From positions 1 to 9,242 of the forward strand of contig JARIGY010000084.1 in NCBI GenBank assembly GCA_029288535.1: DNA of 9,242 nt, in the 5' to 3' direction. The translations under genes were made by a program, and so were the position numbers. Position 1 is the first letter of the stretch. Every line of letters starts with the position of its first letter. This DNA comes from Candidatus Tayloriibacteriota bacterium. Lineage in GTDB: Bacteria > Patescibacteriota > Minisyncoccia > Phycocordibacterales > JAKAEA01. The notes under the pieces are model-generated. The model had not been told where the DNA came from, ran no database searches, and was given only the letters and a program-made list of their open reading frames with translations. This document shows positions 733-9,149 of this stretch, one piece after another.

Positions 733-760
733 TTGACAATATCCATGACTCTGATAATAT
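733..760 (+). promoter_or_regulatory. Promoter for tuf and the first half of the S10 cluster
   Basis: A perfect -35 TTGACA (733-738) lies 16 bp upstream of TAATAT (755-760), which is preceded by TG at the extended -10 position (752-753). Transcription would begin near 767, leaving a leader of roughly 95 nt before tuf. The leader is AU-rich, with a weak 4-bp hairpin (CGCA/TGCG, 769-780) followed by a T run. I see no clear riboswitch or attenuator. Confidence 0.7.
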
Positions 761-861
761 AAGCCAATCGCATTTTTGCGTCGTTTTTTGTATCTATCTC
801 GGTACACTATTCGTCAAAAAGTTATTATTAATAGACAGTTCATTTTTTATTACCCAATTTT

Positions 862-4158: not shown

Positions 4159-5010
4159 ATGAAAACATACAGACCAACATCAAAATCGCGCCGCAACATG
4201 ACCGGCATCAATTACGGTAACTACATTACCGTTTCCGAGCCGCACAAGGCCCTCACAAGCGGCTTCAAGCGCGCTGTCGGCCGAAACTCACAGGGCAAGA
4301 TTACGACTCGCCATAAGGGTGCTGGCCACAAGCGACTCTTCCGCGATGTCGACTTCATGTACAACAAGAAAGAGGTTCCTGCCAAGATCACGACTGTCGA
4401 GTACGATCCAAACCGCACCGGTTTTATTGCGCTTGTTGTCTATGCTGACGGTGAGAAGCGCTACATGCTTTTGCCTAAGTCTGTGAAGGTCGGGGACACG
4501 GTTATCGTTTCTGCAAAAGCGGATATGAAGCCGGGCAACCGCACACAGCTCAAGCAGATCCCTGTCGGTACTTTCGTATACAATGTCGAGCTCAAGGTAA
4601 ACGGCGGCGCCAAGATCGCCCGATCGGCCGGCAACTTCGTTGAAGTTATCGCTCAGGACGCCGGTTATACTCAGATCAAAATGCCTTCAACCGAGATCCG
4701 CCGCGTGCCAGACAACGCATGGGCATCTATCGGTGAAGTTTCAAACGACGAAAACCGCCTCGTCAACCTCGGCAAAGCCGGACGTTCACGATGGCTCGGT
4801 ATCCGTCCAACTGTCCGAGGTACTGCCATGAACCCGGTAGACCATCCATACGGTGGTGGAGAAGGCCGACAGGGACGAGGAACCCGCCGTGCGAAGTCTA
4901 TCTACGGCAAGCCGACAGGCAAGGGTCAGAAGTCACGCCGAGCAAAGAAGTACTCAAACGTCTTCATCGTTACCCGCCGAAAAGTCGGCAAGTCGCGAGA
5001 TCAGAAATAA
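4159..5010 (+). CDS. rplB: 50S ribosomal protein L2
   Basis: L2 (uL2), a core protein near the peptidyl transferase centre that also bridges to the 30S subunit. At 283 residues it is close to the usual 275. The RNA-binding N-terminal region shows GRNSQGKITTRHKGAGHKR, the middle domain has ARSAGNFVEVIAQD, and the C-terminal region has GKAGRSRWLGIRPTVRGTAM and HPYGGGEG. The histidine of that last motif falls at residue 229, the same number as the functionally important E. coli H229. I chose the ATG at 4159, 1 nt after the rplW stop, over an in-frame TTG at 4150 because L2 normally begins with M-K/A-x-x-x-Y-x-P and this ATG gives MKTYRPTS. It is the last gene of the first half-operon; a terminator follows. 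Confidence 0.97.
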   Translation: MKTYRPTSKSRRNMTGINYGNYITVSEPHKALTSGFKRAVGRNSQGKITTRHKGAGHKRLFRDVDFMYNKKEVPAKITTVEYDPNRTGFIALVVYADGEKRYMLLPKSVKVGDTVIVSAKADMKPGNRTQLKQIPVGTFVYNVELKVNGGAKIARSAGNFVEVIAQDAGYTQIKMPSTEIRRVPDNAWASIGEVSNDENRLVNLGKAGRSRWLGIRPTVRGTAMNPVDHPYGGGEGRQGRGTRRAKSIYGKPTGKGQKSRRAKKYSNVFIVTRRKVGKSRDQK

Positions 5011-5037
5011 TCCTTCTCAAAATAATTTTAAAGCAAT

Positions 5038-5066
5038 AAAAAAACCGATCATGAGATCGGTTTTTT
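5038..5066. terminator. Bidirectional intrinsic terminator after rplB
   Basis: CCGATC (5045-5050) pairs with GATCGG (5055-5060) around ATGA, flanked by A7 before and T6 after, so the stem extends by A-U pairs and terminates on either strand. On the plus strand it ends the tuf-rplB transcript 28 nt past the stop. On the minus strand it would be a second barrier behind the terminator of the 5125-6627 gene. Confidence 0.88.
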
Positions 5067-5074
5067 GCATTTTT

Positions 5075-5109
5075 GATATAAGAAAAGCCCCGATGCATGC
5101 ATCGGGGCT
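5075..5109 (-). terminator. Terminator of the minus-strand gene: 24-bp perfect palindrome
   Basis: Positions 5086-5109 form a perfect 24-bp palindrome (AGCCCCGATGCA followed by its reverse complement), giving a stem of 10 bp with a 4-nt TGCA loop. Read on the minus strand it is followed by TTTCTTATAT, a fair termination tail. It starts only 15 nt past the stop codon of the gene at 5125-6627. Confidence 0.82.
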
Positions 5110-5124
5110 AAGAACCACTGTCTT

Positions 5125-6627
5125 CTACATCTTGAAATCAAGCGCGTGCAATTCAGTGAGGAGTCGTTGGCGGCTAGCCTCCAGTTTATGCAACTCCTGA
5201 GCAAAAAGCTTCTCTGCAACCTCGGGAGCTTGGTGATTGGCTTCGTCGTACACAATGAGTATGACGAGCTCGATATCAAGCTTCATCGGCTCAGCTTCGT
5301 TTGTGCCTGAACCATTCAGGATCTGGTGTCCGTCAAAGTAGATGTTGGTCGCTCCGGGGACATGATTTCCTTGGCTCCTAAGTTCTTCCTCAGTAACTGC
5401 ATCTGTGCAGCCATTGTGGAAGCGTTGCGCTTCACGGATTCGTGCCGTGAACGGCGCTGGGTCAAACCCCAAATCCTGCTGAAAGAAAATCTGGGTATTG
5501 CCCTTGGCGTATGTTCCTTGGCGCTGGATCACGATTGCTGCACGCCCGCCTTCGTTTGATCGGCAGAATTTTTGGAATTCAAACTCGCGGTTAAGTCCGG
5601 TTGTAAGCCGGAATTCGAAGAGTCGGTCTCGCCCTCGTGGCGTTGTGACCATGGTCTGGACGTACCGATGATCTGTTTCGTCCGGATTATTCCAGGTGGC
5701 TCGAACGCGATGTTGGAAGCTCAATTCCTTTCGGTGTAGAGCTTTCAGGAACACGTGTGCTGCCTCGACGATTTCTTTTTCCGAAGCAGTGTTGTGAAGA
5801 AATGCCAGCCGAATCATGGTTACGAGATCAAACTTGCTGTCTGACCACGTATTGTCGACTCGTTGATTGAGTCGTGCATACTCGAGGATCCTGTTCATTT
5901 CCGGATGTTCCTCGAGAACCATGAGCTTAGCCGCTATGCGCCGGGCGCCAAACTGTTTCGGGTCGCCATTGACGTACGAACGATGCGGCGCAATGAACTC
6001 CTCGTTTCCGGTGCTTGCAAGCCATGATACGATAATGTCGTTCATGCTGAAAGGGACACTGCACGGCGGCTGTTTGTTGGCAATCACTGATCTCTCGTTA
6101 TGCAGGATTGCCGAGAGAAAGATGCTTGCGGCATAAAACACATCGCTGATCCGCTGCTCCTTCTCGCCGTTTTCGCCATCACAGCAATAACGGAAAGCGG
6201 CCTTGAGCAAGGGACCTAAGTCCCATTCTCCACCAAGAGCGCTGTTGTTCTGGACCTGAGCATAGCTCACCAGCTTTGAGTACTCAGGCAATCTATCCAG
6301 GCCCATCCTTTTGCTGACCTGACTCGCACAACAATCTCCCTCAATCCGAGGTTTGCCGACATCGGGATGTTCGTCGGCCCATCCGTTGAGGATACCAAAC
6401 GCCACCTCGCCCTCAGCTTCAAGTTGCTCGGCAGTTTTTCCGATACGATCCCGACCGTCATACAGGCGAATGCCTGCTTGAGCAGTGTTCACGTATTCTG
6501 AAGTCTCCGTGCAACCAAACAGGAAGATGCCGATAACATCATCAACATCGGGATTCCGGTGTGTAAGCTTGGTGTGAACAAAAAGGGGCTTCTGAGACGC
6601 AGAAACAGGCACATTTGACGCAACCAT
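5125..6627 (-). CDS. Uncharacterised protein with two DHH-like tandem domains
   Basis: A 500-residue, apparently cytoplasmic protein with no signal peptide or membrane segment. Near the N-terminus HRNPDVDD (H23, D27, D29) matches motif I of DHH-superfamily phosphoesterases (HxNPDxD, as in Mn-dependent pyrophosphatase), where these residues bind metal. DEH at 85-87, followed by GDCCASQVSKRMGL (97-110), lies where MYG1-like relatives have DHH and then CAxxLV. Residues 114-180 and 242-305 resemble each other (SYAQVQN/EYARLNQ, then W, DL, AF, and a helix ending FLxAxLH), suggesting an internal duplication whose second copy has lost HxNPDxD. Residues 363-440 (AAIVIQRQG, IYFDGHQILNGS) look like a further domain, and the end is helical. 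Possible roles are a nucleotide or phosphate-ester hydrolase or a non-catalytic relative. That the gene is real is near certain; the family call is tentative. The start is fixed by AAGGAG 6 nt upstream. Confidence 0.9.
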   Translation of the reverse strand: MVASNVPVSASQKPLFVHTKLTHRNPDVDDVIGIFLFGCTETSEYVNTAQAGIRLYDGRDRIGKTAEQLEAEGEVAFGILNGWADEHPDVGKPRIEGDCCASQVSKRMGLDRLPEYSKLVSYAQVQNNSALGGEWDLGPLLKAAFRYCCDGENGEKEQRISDVFYAASIFLSAILHNERSVIANKQPPCSVPFSMNDIIVSWLASTGNEEFIAPHRSYVNGDPKQFGARRIAAKLMVLEEHPEMNRILEYARLNQRVDNTWSDSKFDLVTMIRLAFLHNTASEKEIVEAAHVFLKALHRKELSFQHRVRATWNNPDETDHRYVQTMVTTPRGRDRLFEFRLTTGLNREFEFQKFCRSNEGGRAAIVIQRQGTYAKGNTQIFFQQDLGFDPAPFTARIREAQRFHNGCTDAVTEEELRSQGNHVPGATNIYFDGHQILNGSGTNEAEPMKLDIELVILIVYDEANHQAPEVAEKLFAQELHKLEASRQRLLTELHALDFKM

Positions 6628-6633
6628 AGCATG

Positions 6634-6639
6634 CTCCTT
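6634..6639 (-). promoter_or_regulatory. Consensus Shine-Dalgarno of the minus-strand gene
   Basis: On the minus strand AAGGAG ends 6 nt before the ATG at 6627, a textbook arrangement. It decides the start and shows that ribosomes of this organism probably retain a usable anti-Shine-Dalgarno. Confidence 0.9.
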
Positions 6640-6671
6640 CCCGGATTTTAAAACGCGGGAATAGAAGACTT

Positions 6672-6714
6672 TTCAAAGAACTGAAGCATAGGAACACCCC
6701 ATGCTTTCTTTGAA
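6672..6714 (-). promoter_or_regulatory. Hairpin in the 5' leader of the minus-strand gene
   Basis: TTCAAAGAA (6672-6680) and TTCTTTGAA (6706-6714) are perfect inverted repeats, with an inner pair AAGCAT (6684-6689) and ATGCTT (6701-6706). In RNA this gives a two-part stem with a 3-4 nt bulge and an 11-nt loop. It would lie at the very 5' end of the transcript predicted from the promoter at 6724-6752, about 45 nt upstream of the ribosome binding site. There is no T-tract, so it is not a terminator. It could stabilise the mRNA or bind a protein; this is inference. Confidence 0.6.
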
Positions 6715-6723
6715 CCAAGCTGT

Positions 6724-6752
6724 ATTTTATCATAATTTACATATATTGTCAA
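6724..6752 (-). promoter_or_regulatory. Promoter of the minus-strand gene
   Basis: Read on the minus strand, TTGACA (plus positions 6747-6752) is followed after exactly 17 bp by TAAAAT (6724-6729), five of six matches to the -10 consensus. Transcription would start near 6717, giving a leader of about 90 nt. This is a strong constitutive-looking sigma70-type promoter. Confidence 0.78.
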
Positions 6753-6771
6753 TCAATAGTATGGGTACGCG

Positions 6772-6779
6772 GTCGCGAC
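6772..6779. promoter_or_regulatory. GTCGCGAC palindrome between divergent promoters
   Basis: A perfect 8-bp GC-only-core palindrome lies in a GC-rich island within otherwise AT-rich DNA, almost midway between the two outward-facing -35 boxes (6752 and 6793). It could be a shared operator; it is short, so chance is possible. Confidence 0.25.
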
Positions 6780-6792
6780 AGTGCCCAGCCAT

Positions 6793-6821
6793 TTGACATA
6801 TAACAGGCTTTTGTATAGTAT
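6793..6821 (+). promoter_or_regulatory. Promoter restarting the ribosomal operon before rpsS
   Basis: TTGACA (6793-6798) is followed by overlapping -10 candidates TATAGT (6814-6819, 15-bp spacer) and TAGTAT (6816-6821, 17-bp spacer). The likely start near 6826 leaves a leader of only about 30 nt before rpsS. Because rplB is followed by a terminator and the intervening gene points the other way, this promoter must drive rpsS and everything downstream. Confidence 0.72.
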
Positions 6822-6857
6822 ATCTCTCACGGCTCGTAAGGGCTATTTCTTTTCATT

Positions 6858-7211
6858 ATGGCACGATCACTAAAAAAAGGACCATTCGTCGAGGAGTATC
6901 TCCTCAAGAAAATCGAAGGTAAAAAACCACAGGCAACCGGGCCTATTAAAACCTGGGCGCGCCGCAGCCAGATCGCTCCCGAGATGATCGGTTTCATCTT
7001 TGCGGTTCACAACGGCAAGGATCATATCGAAGTTCTTATCTCAGAAGAGATGGTCGGGCACCGATTGGGCGAATTTGCGCTTACCCGCAAGTTCGTGAAG
7101 CACGGAGGCAAGATGCAGAAGGAATTGGAACAGAAGAAGAAGGAATCCGAAATCGCCGCCGCCCAGTCTGCAAAGGCTGCAACTGCCGATGCCGGAGCCG
7201 CTAAAAAATAA
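6858..7211 (+). CDS. rpsS: 30S ribosomal protein S19
   Basis: S19 (uS19), a head protein of the 30S subunit that contacts S13 and the A-site finger. The start [18 protein letters not shown], then [40 protein letters not shown] and the TRKFVKHGG end are classic. The length is 117 residues against about 92, because of a C-terminal tail (about 85-117) of Lys, Glu and Ala that looks disordered or helical. The ATG at 6858 is in the context TTTTCATTATG. AAGGG lies 15 nt upstream, too far for normal Shine-Dalgarno pairing. It is the first gene of the second half-operon; rplV begins 5 nt after the stop. Confidence 0.96.
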
Positions 7212-7605: not shown

Positions 7606-8262
7606 ATGTCCAAACACGTACATCCATATTCACACCGCCTTGGAATCCTGAGAGACTGGAAATCTCGCTGGTTTACTTCCGATAAGAAATACCGCGATTA
7701 TCTAAAGTCGGATGTTCTTGTACGTGAGTATCTCGTGAAGAAGCTCCGTGGAATGTATGTTTCCGGCGTTGAAATCGAGCGAAGCGAAAAGACCATGCAC
7801 ATTATCGTGAAGACTTCGCGACCCGGCGTGCTCATCGGCCGCAATGGGGAAGGCCAGGTCAAGCTCAAGACCGATATCGAAAATTTTATGAAGAAGCATA
7901 AGCTTTTCATGAATCAGGAGATCAAGCTTTCTATTGAAGAGATCCGATCGCCTGAGTCAAACGCGGCCATTGTCGGTTTCATGGTGGCAGAAAGCCTGGA
8001 AAAGCGCTTGCCGTTCCGCCGTGTCATGAAGCAGATGGTCGAGAAAGTCATGGCGAACCGCGATGTTCAGGGAGTTCGCATTGCACTTGGCGGTCGTCTC
8101 GGAGGTGCCGATATGGCCCGCTACGAAGACCTCAAGCGAGGACGGATTCCTCTTCAGACCCTGCGCGCCGATATTGATTTCGCCCGAGAAAAGGCCCATA
8201 TGACCTACGGCGATATCGGGATCAAGGTCTGGATCTATAAGGGAGAAATTTTCAATAAATAA
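7606..8262 (+). CDS. rpsC: 30S ribosomal protein S3
   Basis: S3 (uS3), at the mRNA entry channel of the 30S subunit. The N-terminal KH domain has the GxxG loop at G78-R-N-G81 (VLIGRNGEG), and the C-terminal domain has LEKRLPFRRVMKQ, GGRLGGADMARYE and GRIPLQTLRADIDF, all typical. The length of 218 residues is normal. The start reads HPYSHRLGILRDWKSRWF, a common bacterial form. The ATG follows the rplV stop by 5 nt in the context TAACCATCATG, without a Shine-Dalgarno. rplP begins 6 nt after its stop. Confidence 0.97.
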   Translation: MSKHVHPYSHRLGILRDWKSRWFTSDKKYRDYLKSDVLVREYLVKKLRGMYVSGVEIERSEKTMHIIVKTSRPGVLIGRNGEGQVKLKTDIENFMKKHKLFMNQEIKLSIEEIRSPESNAAIVGFMVAESLEKRLPFRRVMKQMVEKVMANRDVQGVRIALGGRLGGADMARYEDLKRGRIPLQTLRADIDFAREKAHMTYGDIGIKVWIYKGEIFNK

Positions 8263-8885: not shown

Positions 8886-9149
8886 ATGGAAAAAACAATC
8901 ACCACAACCCCAAAGCACAAGACCTTAGACGGCGTCGTTTCATCCGACAAGATGAAAGACACGGTTGTGGTTATTGTGGAACGATACGTCAAGATACCGA
9001 AGTATCAGAAATTCGTTTCTTCCCGCAAGAAGTACAAGGTTCACGACCCGGGCAACACTGCCAAGATCGGCGACAAAGTGGTTATCGAAGAAACCCGCCC
9101 TATTTCAAAGCATAAGCATTTTAAGATCATCGAGATCAAGAAAAGTTAG
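8886..9149 (+). CDS. rpsQ: 30S ribosomal protein S17
   Basis: S17 (uS17), an OB-fold primary 16S rRNA-binding protein. Family features are LDGVVSSDKMKDTVVVIVER, followed by the basic loop PKYQKFVSSRKKYKVHDP and GDKVVIEETRPISKHKHFKI. The length of 87 residues is normal. The start ATG is 4 nt after rpmC in the context TAATACCATGG, the same form as the next gene, without a Shine-Dalgarno. The gene ends in TAG, whereas every other complete ribosomal gene here and tuf end in TAA. Confidence 0.97.
   Translation: MEKTITTTPKHKTLDGVVSSDKMKDTVVVIVERYVKIPKYQKFVSSRKKYKVHDPGNTAKIGDKVVIEETRPISKHKHFKIIEIKKS

Follow-up and report, generated by a model that had tools for sequence, protein, structure and literature searches.

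An order-wide break at the rplB-rpsS junction of the S10 operon in Patescibacteria, with a predicted rpsS promoter and diverse cargo genes

The stretch of DNA analysed here, referred to below as the window, is a complete contig of 9,242 bp (JARIGY010000084.1) from the 792-kb draft genome (107 contigs, assembly GCA_029288535.1) of a Candidatus Tayloriibacteriota bacterium of the order Phycocordibacterales (Patescibacteriota), and the subject of this work is its S10 operon. In its canonical form this operon reads rpsJ-rplC-rplD-rplW-rplB-rpsS-rplV-rpsC-rplP-rpmC-rpsQ, and the S10-spc run is among the most conserved bacterial gene orders. In the window, rplB does not adjoin rpsS; the two genes are 1,847 bp apart. 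We consider it highly probable that this gap is one instance of a break between rplB and rpsS that runs through the whole order, with the downstream half of the operon likely having its own promoter and with different lineages holding different, mostly unrelated genes in the break. The cargo of the window is one minus-strand gene, whose predicted product is phosphohydrolase-like.

The gene rplB ends at position 5010 and rpsS starts at 6858, and the only large open reading frame (ORF) between them lies on the minus strand (5125-6627, 500 amino acids), as stated in the initial annotation, which was made from the sequence alone and described the operon as split at this point by a complete reverse-strand gene. 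It also credited the gene with its own promoter, Shine-Dalgarno sequence and terminator, and consensus signals of all three kinds were recovered. On the minus strand, TTGACA (6752-6747) is followed after 17 nucleotides by TAAAAT ending at 6724, with 11 of 12 matches and a TG before the −10 box; AAGGAG precedes the start of the gene, and hairpin prediction places a terminator-like hairpin of the minus-strand gene at 5086-5109. That the ribosomal operon ends and restarts around the gene, a further claim of that annotation, is supported by a bidirectional, terminator-like hairpin of 12 bp after rplB (5039-5066, plus strand; 5033-5080 folds at −15.9 kcal/mol, z-score −5.2) and by the predicted rpsS promoter TTGACA-17-TAGTAT (6793-6821, plus strand), which is divergent from the cargo promoter and conserved in relatives. 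Near the 5′ end of the predicted rpsS transcript, a leader hairpin GGCUC-GUAA-GGGCU (6831-6844, plus strand; −6.1 kcal/mol, z-score −3.0) is followed by a U-rich stretch. Promoter-like sites as such were not enriched in the gap (three, against a mean of 2.3 in shuffled sequences); it is their recurrence in relatives that carries the weight. With 49% G+C, the gap is close to the 50% of the whole window. A Pfam scan and a repeat search detected no transposase or integrase gene and no terminal repeats in the gap, and between 4900 and 6960 there were no flanking repeats of at least 12 nucleotides besides the two terminator hairpins and three pairs of 12-mers inside the gap; the window gap lacks the hallmarks of a mobile element, as the annotation had noted.

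The comparison of gene order at this junction in related Patescibacteria, which the initial annotation had recommended, set the order apart from the rest of the phylum. We located the L2 and S19 domains of Pfam in 197 relatives (best 150 places for each domain); 123 genomes had both. In 96 of these the two domains share a contig and a strand, at a distance of 1-250 bp in 16 genomes and at a longer distance in 77; in the other three, rpsS is more than 43 kb away on the other side of rplB. The two genes are on different contigs in 26 of the remaining 27 genomes, and the 27th (G108, a single contig with the loci L114 and L115) has them 339 kb apart on opposite strands. Outside the order, in a sample of the phylum, the distance was 1-250 bp in 117 of 129 genomes and longer in seven, rpsS was upstream of rplB in five, and four further genomes had the genes on different contigs. 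The break is nearly restricted to the order in this sample (junction closed in 117/129 genomes outside versus 16/96 inside; Fisher p = 3 × 10−31). The five genomes with rpsS upstream (G204, G225, G243, G275 and G303) all belong to one family, f104; their rpsS lies about 1 kb from rplB in a changed local gene order.

Gaps were measured in an order set of 100 stretches, which comprised 89 of the 90 stretches with rplB and rpsS on one contig within 9 kb (the 90th being the window) and 11 chosen ones, and which was annotated with profiles built for this analysis. Nearly all the genomes are drafts, and since the set is restricted to pairs on one contig within 9 kb, full separations are under-counted. 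The rplB-rpsS gap was longer than 200 bp in 71 of 93 loci and longer than 500 bp in 59 of 93, with a median of 842 bp. A contig scan with the L2 protein of the window gave a second, named set of 80 loci (Taylorbacteria, Nomurabacteria, Yonathbacteria, Kaiserbacteria, Vogelbacteria, Campbellbacteria and others). By L2 they are the nearest relatives that have names, not necessarily all from the order; at least 12 of their contigs also supply order loci, one of these coming from Taylorbacteria and two from Yonathbacteria. Here the gap exceeded 200 bp in 54 of 60 loci and 500 bp in 44 of 60; 20 of the 80 loci were without rpsS, 12 of them with more than 4 kb of sequence after rplB. For the union of both sets minus the 12 detected duplicates, the gap was longer than 200 bp in 116/144 loci. 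In the outgroup, 18 of 20 gaps measured −1 to 32 bp, and the other two 193 and 955 bp. The eight other junctions from rplC to rpsQ were nearly always closed in both sets: they exceeded 200 bp in 10/744 and 500 bp in 1/744 cases of the order set, and in 6/491 and 3/491 cases of the named set. The only other junction between rpsJ and rpsQ that varied much was rpsJ-rplC, which exceeded 500 bp in 15 of 89 order loci and 3 of 20 outgroup loci; its openings in the order contain terminator-like sites, and few strong promoters were seen before rplC.

The predicted rpsS promoter recurs in the relatives. We searched inside the gap, within 160 nucleotides of rpsS, for sigma70-like sites with at least 9 of 12 matches and found one in 81 of 93 order loci (shuffles 18%), among them 20 of the 22 whose gap is shorter than 200 bp (shuffles 12%). 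The corresponding count in the outgroup, 1 of 19 gaps, is a weak control, as 18 of 20 outgroup gaps are at most 32 bp long and too short to hold a promoter. A second search gave a fairer control by covering the 130 nucleotides before rpsS whatever they code for, rplB included, and by requiring at least 10 of 12 matches: such a promoter precedes rpsS in 80 of 147 order and named loci versus 0 of 20 outgroup loci. By consensus, then, rpsS has a dedicated predicted promoter. Terminator-like hairpins follow rplB in 41 of the 53 loci with gaps above 700 bp (10% in shuffles). The two halves of the operon are probably transcribed separately, and to this extent the uncoupling of the halves that the initial annotation had suggested stands. 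Because loci with hardly any insert also have a predicted rpsS promoter, this uncoupling is more plausibly a trait of the lineage than a consequence of the window gene.

A second junction, rplE-rpsN in the spc operon, behaves like rplB-rpsS. It is longer than 60 bp in 60 of 67 order loci versus 1 of 20 outgroup loci, and longer than 500 bp in 22 of 67 versus 0 of 20, with a median gap of 244 bp. In locus L025, for example, the promoter-hairpin layout stands before rpsN at such a break, near position 6210.

In a tree of 111 concatenated rows (quick IQ-TREE run, LG+G4), the order formed one clade against the outgroup, and the junction changed between open and closed at least 20 times at a 200-bp cut. 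A two-state model, with the data below that node, gave the ancestor of the order an open junction (0.93-1.00 over three cut-offs). This ancestor would suit an account that we regard as possible, if not favoured, in which the insertion came first: an ancestor acquired, between rplB and rpsS, a gene equipped with signals of its own, the rpsS promoter and leader came later or with it, and the short gaps are later deletions of cargo. The short-gap genomes are indeed nested in open clades, and a few-gene insertion followed by full disconnection is described in the portion of Brandis 2021 (PMC8046335) available to us. However, the predicted promoter is present in nearly all of the short-gap genomes counted above, L118 (the first row to branch off) combines a weak promoter with a gap of just 456 bp, and the similar layout at rplE-rpsN comes with shorter gaps, which is what a promoter-first history would give.

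Directly after the −10 box, the rpsS leaders have a predicted hairpin of 5-6 bp, most commonly AGCUC-loop-GAGCU, which is followed by U-rich sequence and the start codon. Among 117 distinct leaders (promoter with at least 9 matches, length at least 27 nucleotides), 112 had a candidate stem, whose mean score was 8.2 versus 3.6 in shuffles of the same leaders; in 87 of the 112 the stem begins 6-9 nucleotides after the −10 box. The hairpin alignment contained 84 of 100 leaders with at least three G-C pairs, the other 16, mostly look-alikes, having been left out by hand. In this alignment 87.8% of the cells were paired versus 81.1% after shuffling, all six pairs changed on both sides, double-changed cells numbered 30 versus 10.2, and the covariation score was 0.267 versus 0.150. 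Slid controls had far lower values for paired cells (23-55%) and for the covariation score (0.05-0.10). The rpsS messenger RNA (mRNA) leader contains a conserved, covarying RNA structure, as judged on leaders preselected for the stem. The rpsS leader of the window was the best match of the hairpin model in the window (E value 0.009), this leader having been in the training set.

We then counted, gene by gene, hairpins directly after the −10 box of promoters with at least 10 of 12 matches, the searched lengths differing by gene. For rpsS, a strong promoter occurred in 80/147 loci and the hairpin in 69/77 (shuffles 16%); for rpsN, the numbers were 46/96 and 28/40 (shuffles 21%), and for tuf 66/119 and 33/64 (shuffles 14%). 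Strong promoters were scarce before rpsJ (2/142), rplC (3/154), rplV (0/146) and rpsQ (7/137). Outgroup loci had such a promoter before rpsS in 0 of 20 cases and before rpsN in 2 of 20, there without the hairpin. Many ribosomal RNA (rRNA) operons have a similar layout: in 29 leaders from 30 loci (L298-L327, upstream of 16S rRNA), a promoter was found in 28 (best match within 700 nucleotides), and a hairpin of variable sequence, mostly with other letters, directly follows the −10 box in 17 of these 28 (shuffles 18%). A search of 60 genomes with the promoter-leader pattern yielded 74 matches (20 at rpsS, 15 at rpsN and 39 elsewhere) versus nine for the reversed pattern; since the place of rpsS was known for only 51 of the 60 genomes, the 20 rpsS matches are a lower bound. 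Seven of the 39 matches elsewhere were scanned with Rfam: five are upstream of 16S rRNA, and the two others, G000:C85 and G001:C29, had no match. Many of the remaining matches elsewhere resemble chance hits or adjoin unrelated genes. In the order and named loci, Shine-Dalgarno letters were counted before 12 genes (tuf and ribosomal ones) and were not clearly richer than in shuffles for any of them, with at most a weak excess before rpsS (12% versus 6% shuffled), whereas the window cargo gene is preceded by AAGGAG.

We had thought the hairpin special to rpsS and rpsN, and dropped this idea as hairpins also occur in the rRNA operon leaders. A rather unlikely variant makes the rpsS hairpin an autoregulatory ribosomal-protein leader or an attenuator, built of hairpin and U-run, instead of a general stabiliser of the 5′ end. 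It would account for the conserved AGCUC/GAGCU letters and U-rich tail at rpsS and several rpsN genes and for the terminator-like appearance of the hairpin in several genomes. Against it stand the hairpins at the same place, mostly with other letters, in the rRNA leaders and the strong-promoter tuf leaders, rRNA being untranslated; moreover, the Rfam scan of the window gave no match at gathering scores. Hairpins that keep their place near the 5′ end of abundant transcripts but vary in sequence are probably better explained by RNA protection or promoter escape than by a single ribosomal protein.

The cargo of the junction is highly diverse. In the gaps of the order set we counted 170 ORFs of at least 70 amino acids, some of them maybe spurious, 120 on the operon strand and 50 on the opposite strand. 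BLAST grouped them into 149 clusters, 135 of which are singletons. The Pfam scan covered 121 of the 132 proteins of at least 100 amino acids (the remaining 11, all from locus L119, were scanned separately) and assigned 69 families in the 121 proteins, the commonest having four members. Among the products are IMP dehydrogenase, queuosine synthesis proteins, TruD, Fic, MazF-like and Zeta-toxin-like proteins, and pilins; no transposase or integrase was among the cargo Pfam families listed (18/18 of set A7, 20/20 of set A8 and 25/42 of set A9). Sets A7 and A9 each include one protein with a Ribosomal_L10 domain. Locus L119 (G135; JAGXAG010000001.1) has a 14-kb island between rplB and rpsS in which an Avd-like protein, a reverse transcriptase and Fib_succ_major-domain proteins are encoded at 12020-14773; by gene content this is a putative diversity-generating retroelement.

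Turnover of the cargo was followed in seven pairs of near relatives (rplB DNA 79-95% identical in six pairs and 75% in one). The alignments of the pairs stop near the rplB stop codon, that of L071 with L027 continuing for about 90 nucleotides further. In four of the seven pairs nothing aligned within the island, apart from a 59-nucleotide stretch kept in one of them, and the alignment resumed 66-142 nucleotides before rpsS, at the promoter. The other three pairs have part of the island in common.

The window cargo gene belongs to a family without a Pfam model, and its protein matched no family in Pfam, PHROGs and PADLOC scans. A direct search of 5.8 billion proteins, of limited sensitivity, returned two relatives, and a profile search of the order found family members in 48 of 397 genomes, so that the window ORF is a real gene and not a chance ORF. 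With its motifs H..PD.DD and DxH the protein is predicted to be a metal-dependent phosphohydrolase-like enzyme, and the whole family may be phosphohydrolase-like. Across 32 aligned members, the residues kept in most sequences include D29 (30/30), D85 (28/31), H87 (30/31), D127 (27/31), R356 (29/32) and N438 (32/32); the window protein keeps D29, D85 and H87, has N at 127 and departs at further positions. Its structure prediction, made from three sequences, was too poor to use (predicted local distance difference test score 45). The window family resembles MYG1/UPF0160 (PF03690) and DHH-type phosphohydrolases in having an H/D motif near the N terminus and, at a similar spacing, a DxH motif; it matched neither of them in Pfam, Protein Data Bank or profile comparisons. 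The window protein had no Pfam match to PF03690 at E values up to 1, and hhalign of the family alignment against the MYG1 of genome G002 returned a probability of 0.2. The idea that the window protein is a diverged MYG1 was unsupported by this comparison with one MYG1; the likeness is at the level of motifs.

Four other members of the family were found at or near ribosomal-protein junctions. The sister genome G002 has a 315-amino-acid member in the same gap (profile E value 4 × 10−43), and G167 has one of 504 amino acids at rplB-rpsS (E value 2 × 10−46); the member of G001 lies upstream of rpsS on a contig without rplB, and that of G039 at rplE-rpsN. Between rplB and rpsS in G002, the family member and a true MYG1 (PF03690, E value 2 × 10−42) adjoin each other, the two together at L041 9103-11025. 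In the family tree the window protein groups with P0002, apart from these four members, on a long branch whose placement is unsure. As it is on another branch than the four junction members, an independent arrival is the simplest reading.

It is conceivable, though we give it little credence, that the cargo was selected because the window family and the G002 MYG1 act on RNA, so that high co-expression with ribosomal genes was favoured. In 5 of the 48 genomes with a match, a member is found at or beside a ribosomal-protein junction (G000, G002 and G167 at rplB-rpsS, G001 and G039), a count in which the locations of the members in the other 43 genomes were only partly compared with rpsS and rpsN. 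A MYG1 protein shares the gap in G002, and MYG1 is termed a 3′-5′ RNA exonuclease in the part of PMC11167044 available to us. Most cargo, however, is unrelated, and the window copy belongs to another branch of the family, though a long one, has N at position 127 and is encoded on the opposite strand.

A single recent insertion peculiar to the lineage of the window is very improbable. Two near relatives, G003 and G004, have closed junctions of 43 and 45 bp, as this explanation would predict, but four genes occupy the open junction of the sister genome G002, four ORFs precede rpsS in G001, where rplB is on another contig, and the order-wide statistics refute it as a general account. The settled insertion proposed by the initial annotation is consistent with the missing mobile-element hallmarks; as a single event it does not fit an opening that is found throughout the order and whose cargo differs between most lineages. 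Least credible of all is a chimeric assembly: the window is a whole contig of a fragmented draft, but mis-assembly is unlikely because many independent assemblies, the single-contig G002 among them, are open at this junction too, and the promoter-leader of the window rpsS matches the version in relatives.

Several points weigh against the reading of an order-wide break with separate transcription. The gap is at most 200 bp in 22 of 93 order loci, those of the closed near relatives G003 and G004 among the short ones, and the order set consists of loci picked for having rplB and rpsS on one contig within 9 kb, plus the 11 chosen stretches. The promoters and terminators are consensus matches, and some terminator-like matches in short gaps are the leader hairpin itself. 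The hairpin accompanies most strong rpsS promoters and not all, the leaders of L022, L023 and L024 are only 11-14 nucleotides long, and the hairpin alignment holds only leaders preselected for a G-C-rich stem. In that alignment 24 and 25 sequences fail to pair at the two outer positions of the stem, and the slid controls reach 21 double-changed cells at slide −3 and also six double-change pairs at slide −2. In the outgroup, tuf has a strong promoter in 12 of 18 loci and a hairpin in 4 of 12 (shuffles 14%); this layout at tuf is therefore not peculiar to the order. Finally, the open ancestor, obtained with a crude two-state model, also fits an insertion followed later by the promoter.

Our best reading remains that the S10-spc cluster is predicted to be split order-wide into separately transcribed modules, with the junctions as docking sites. 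The upstream module tuf-rpsJ-rplC-rplD-rplW-rplB would terminate after rplB, and the module starting with rpsS-rplV-rpsC-rplP-rpmC-rpsQ would begin at its own promoter. The 5′ hairpin may protect the rpsS transcript, which would be a very abundant RNA, because rpsN, as well as many tuf genes and 16S rRNA operons, is headed by a similar layout. Incoming genes would be tolerated between terminator and promoter, and could be gained, lost and swapped there, because this space is not needed for ribosomal-protein synthesis; the arrival of the window gene would be unconnected with that of its relative at this junction in the sister genus. There is perhaps an even chance that the order went further and rewired S10-spc into at least three separately transcribed modules (tuf to rplB, rpsS to rplE, and rpsN onwards), headed by a cassette of strong promoter and 5′ hairpin like that of rRNA operons, so that rRNA and ribosomal proteins would share one control layout and the freed junctions would be permanent docking sites for cargo up to a whole diversity-generating retroelement. 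An order that breaks a conserved run at fixed points offers a route, by comparison and transcript mapping, to the balance of ribosomal proteins and rRNA in small-genome bacteria, and rplB-rpsS would be a defined and easily retrieved site for reading newly gained genes across hundreds of genomes.

The remaining genes of the window, all on the plus strand, keep the canonical order and orientation, with tuf at the head, rpsJ to rplB before the gap, and rpsS to the start of rplN after it. Pfam identified tuf (EF-Tu, GTP_EFTU; 862-2055), the first gene of the upstream module, rpsJ (S10; 2089-2469), rplC (L3; 2497-3117), rplD (L4; 3129-3779), rplW (L23; 3786-4157) and rplB (L2; 4159-5010), the last gene of that module, as well as rpsS (S19; 6858-7211), the first gene of the downstream module. 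The following genes were named from sequence and gene order, with homologues in place in relatives: rplV (L22; 7217-7600), rpsC (S3; 7606-8262), rplP (L16; 8269-8694), rpmC (L29; 8705-8881) and rpsQ (S17; 8886-9149). The last one, rplN (L14; 9165-9242), is truncated by the contig end and was named from its sequence, its start resembling the ORF L113 2520-2897. Before tuf there is a predicted promoter (TTGACA 733-738, TAATAT 755-760) with a 4-bp hairpin CGCA-UUUU-UGCG near the predicted transcript start (769-780; whole element 733-780, plus strand), which scored 6.4, just below the counting threshold of 6.5, with a fold z-score of only −1.3. Two small ORFs upstream of tuf (3-218 and 378-707) had no Pfam family above the cut-off, and ARAGORN found no transfer RNA in the window.

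Compared with the canonical S10 operon, the window has the same genes in the same order before and after the gap and differs by the interruption between rplB and rpsS and by the predicted rpsS promoter. True MYG1 is linked to this locus by its presence in the same gap in G002. We found no paper on a split S10 operon in Patescibacteria or the candidate phyla radiation, in a literature search that left subscription journals mostly uncovered and is no proof of novelty. The Leptospira S10-spc-alpha locus has been called unusual in composition and organization in the accessible text of PMC2481283. In Alphaproteobacteria, an L2 leader is tabulated ahead of rplB, rpsS, rplV and rpsC (PMC7247131, in the section consulted); it precedes rplB and belongs to another phylum, whereas the element described here lies between rplB and rpsS. 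A 5′-terminal stem-loop stabilises mRNA in E. coli (Emory et al. 1992, as cited in a passage of PMC7509114); the likeness is a hairpin at or near the 5′ end of a highly expressed transcript, the rpsS hairpin being known by comparison alone and its transcript start being predicted. The closest parallel in arrangement comes from the larger ribosomal gene cluster, for which similarly strong conservation of order is stated in the available portion of PMC8046335, together with a few unrelated genes inserted at a cluster junction and full separation in some lineages. The inserts described in that portion are between operons (str-S10, rpoBC-str) or inside rpoBC, with one defined insert each, whereas the break reported here lies inside the S10 operon, at a fixed junction and order-wide, with mostly lineage-specific cargo and a predicted promoter-hairpin flank.

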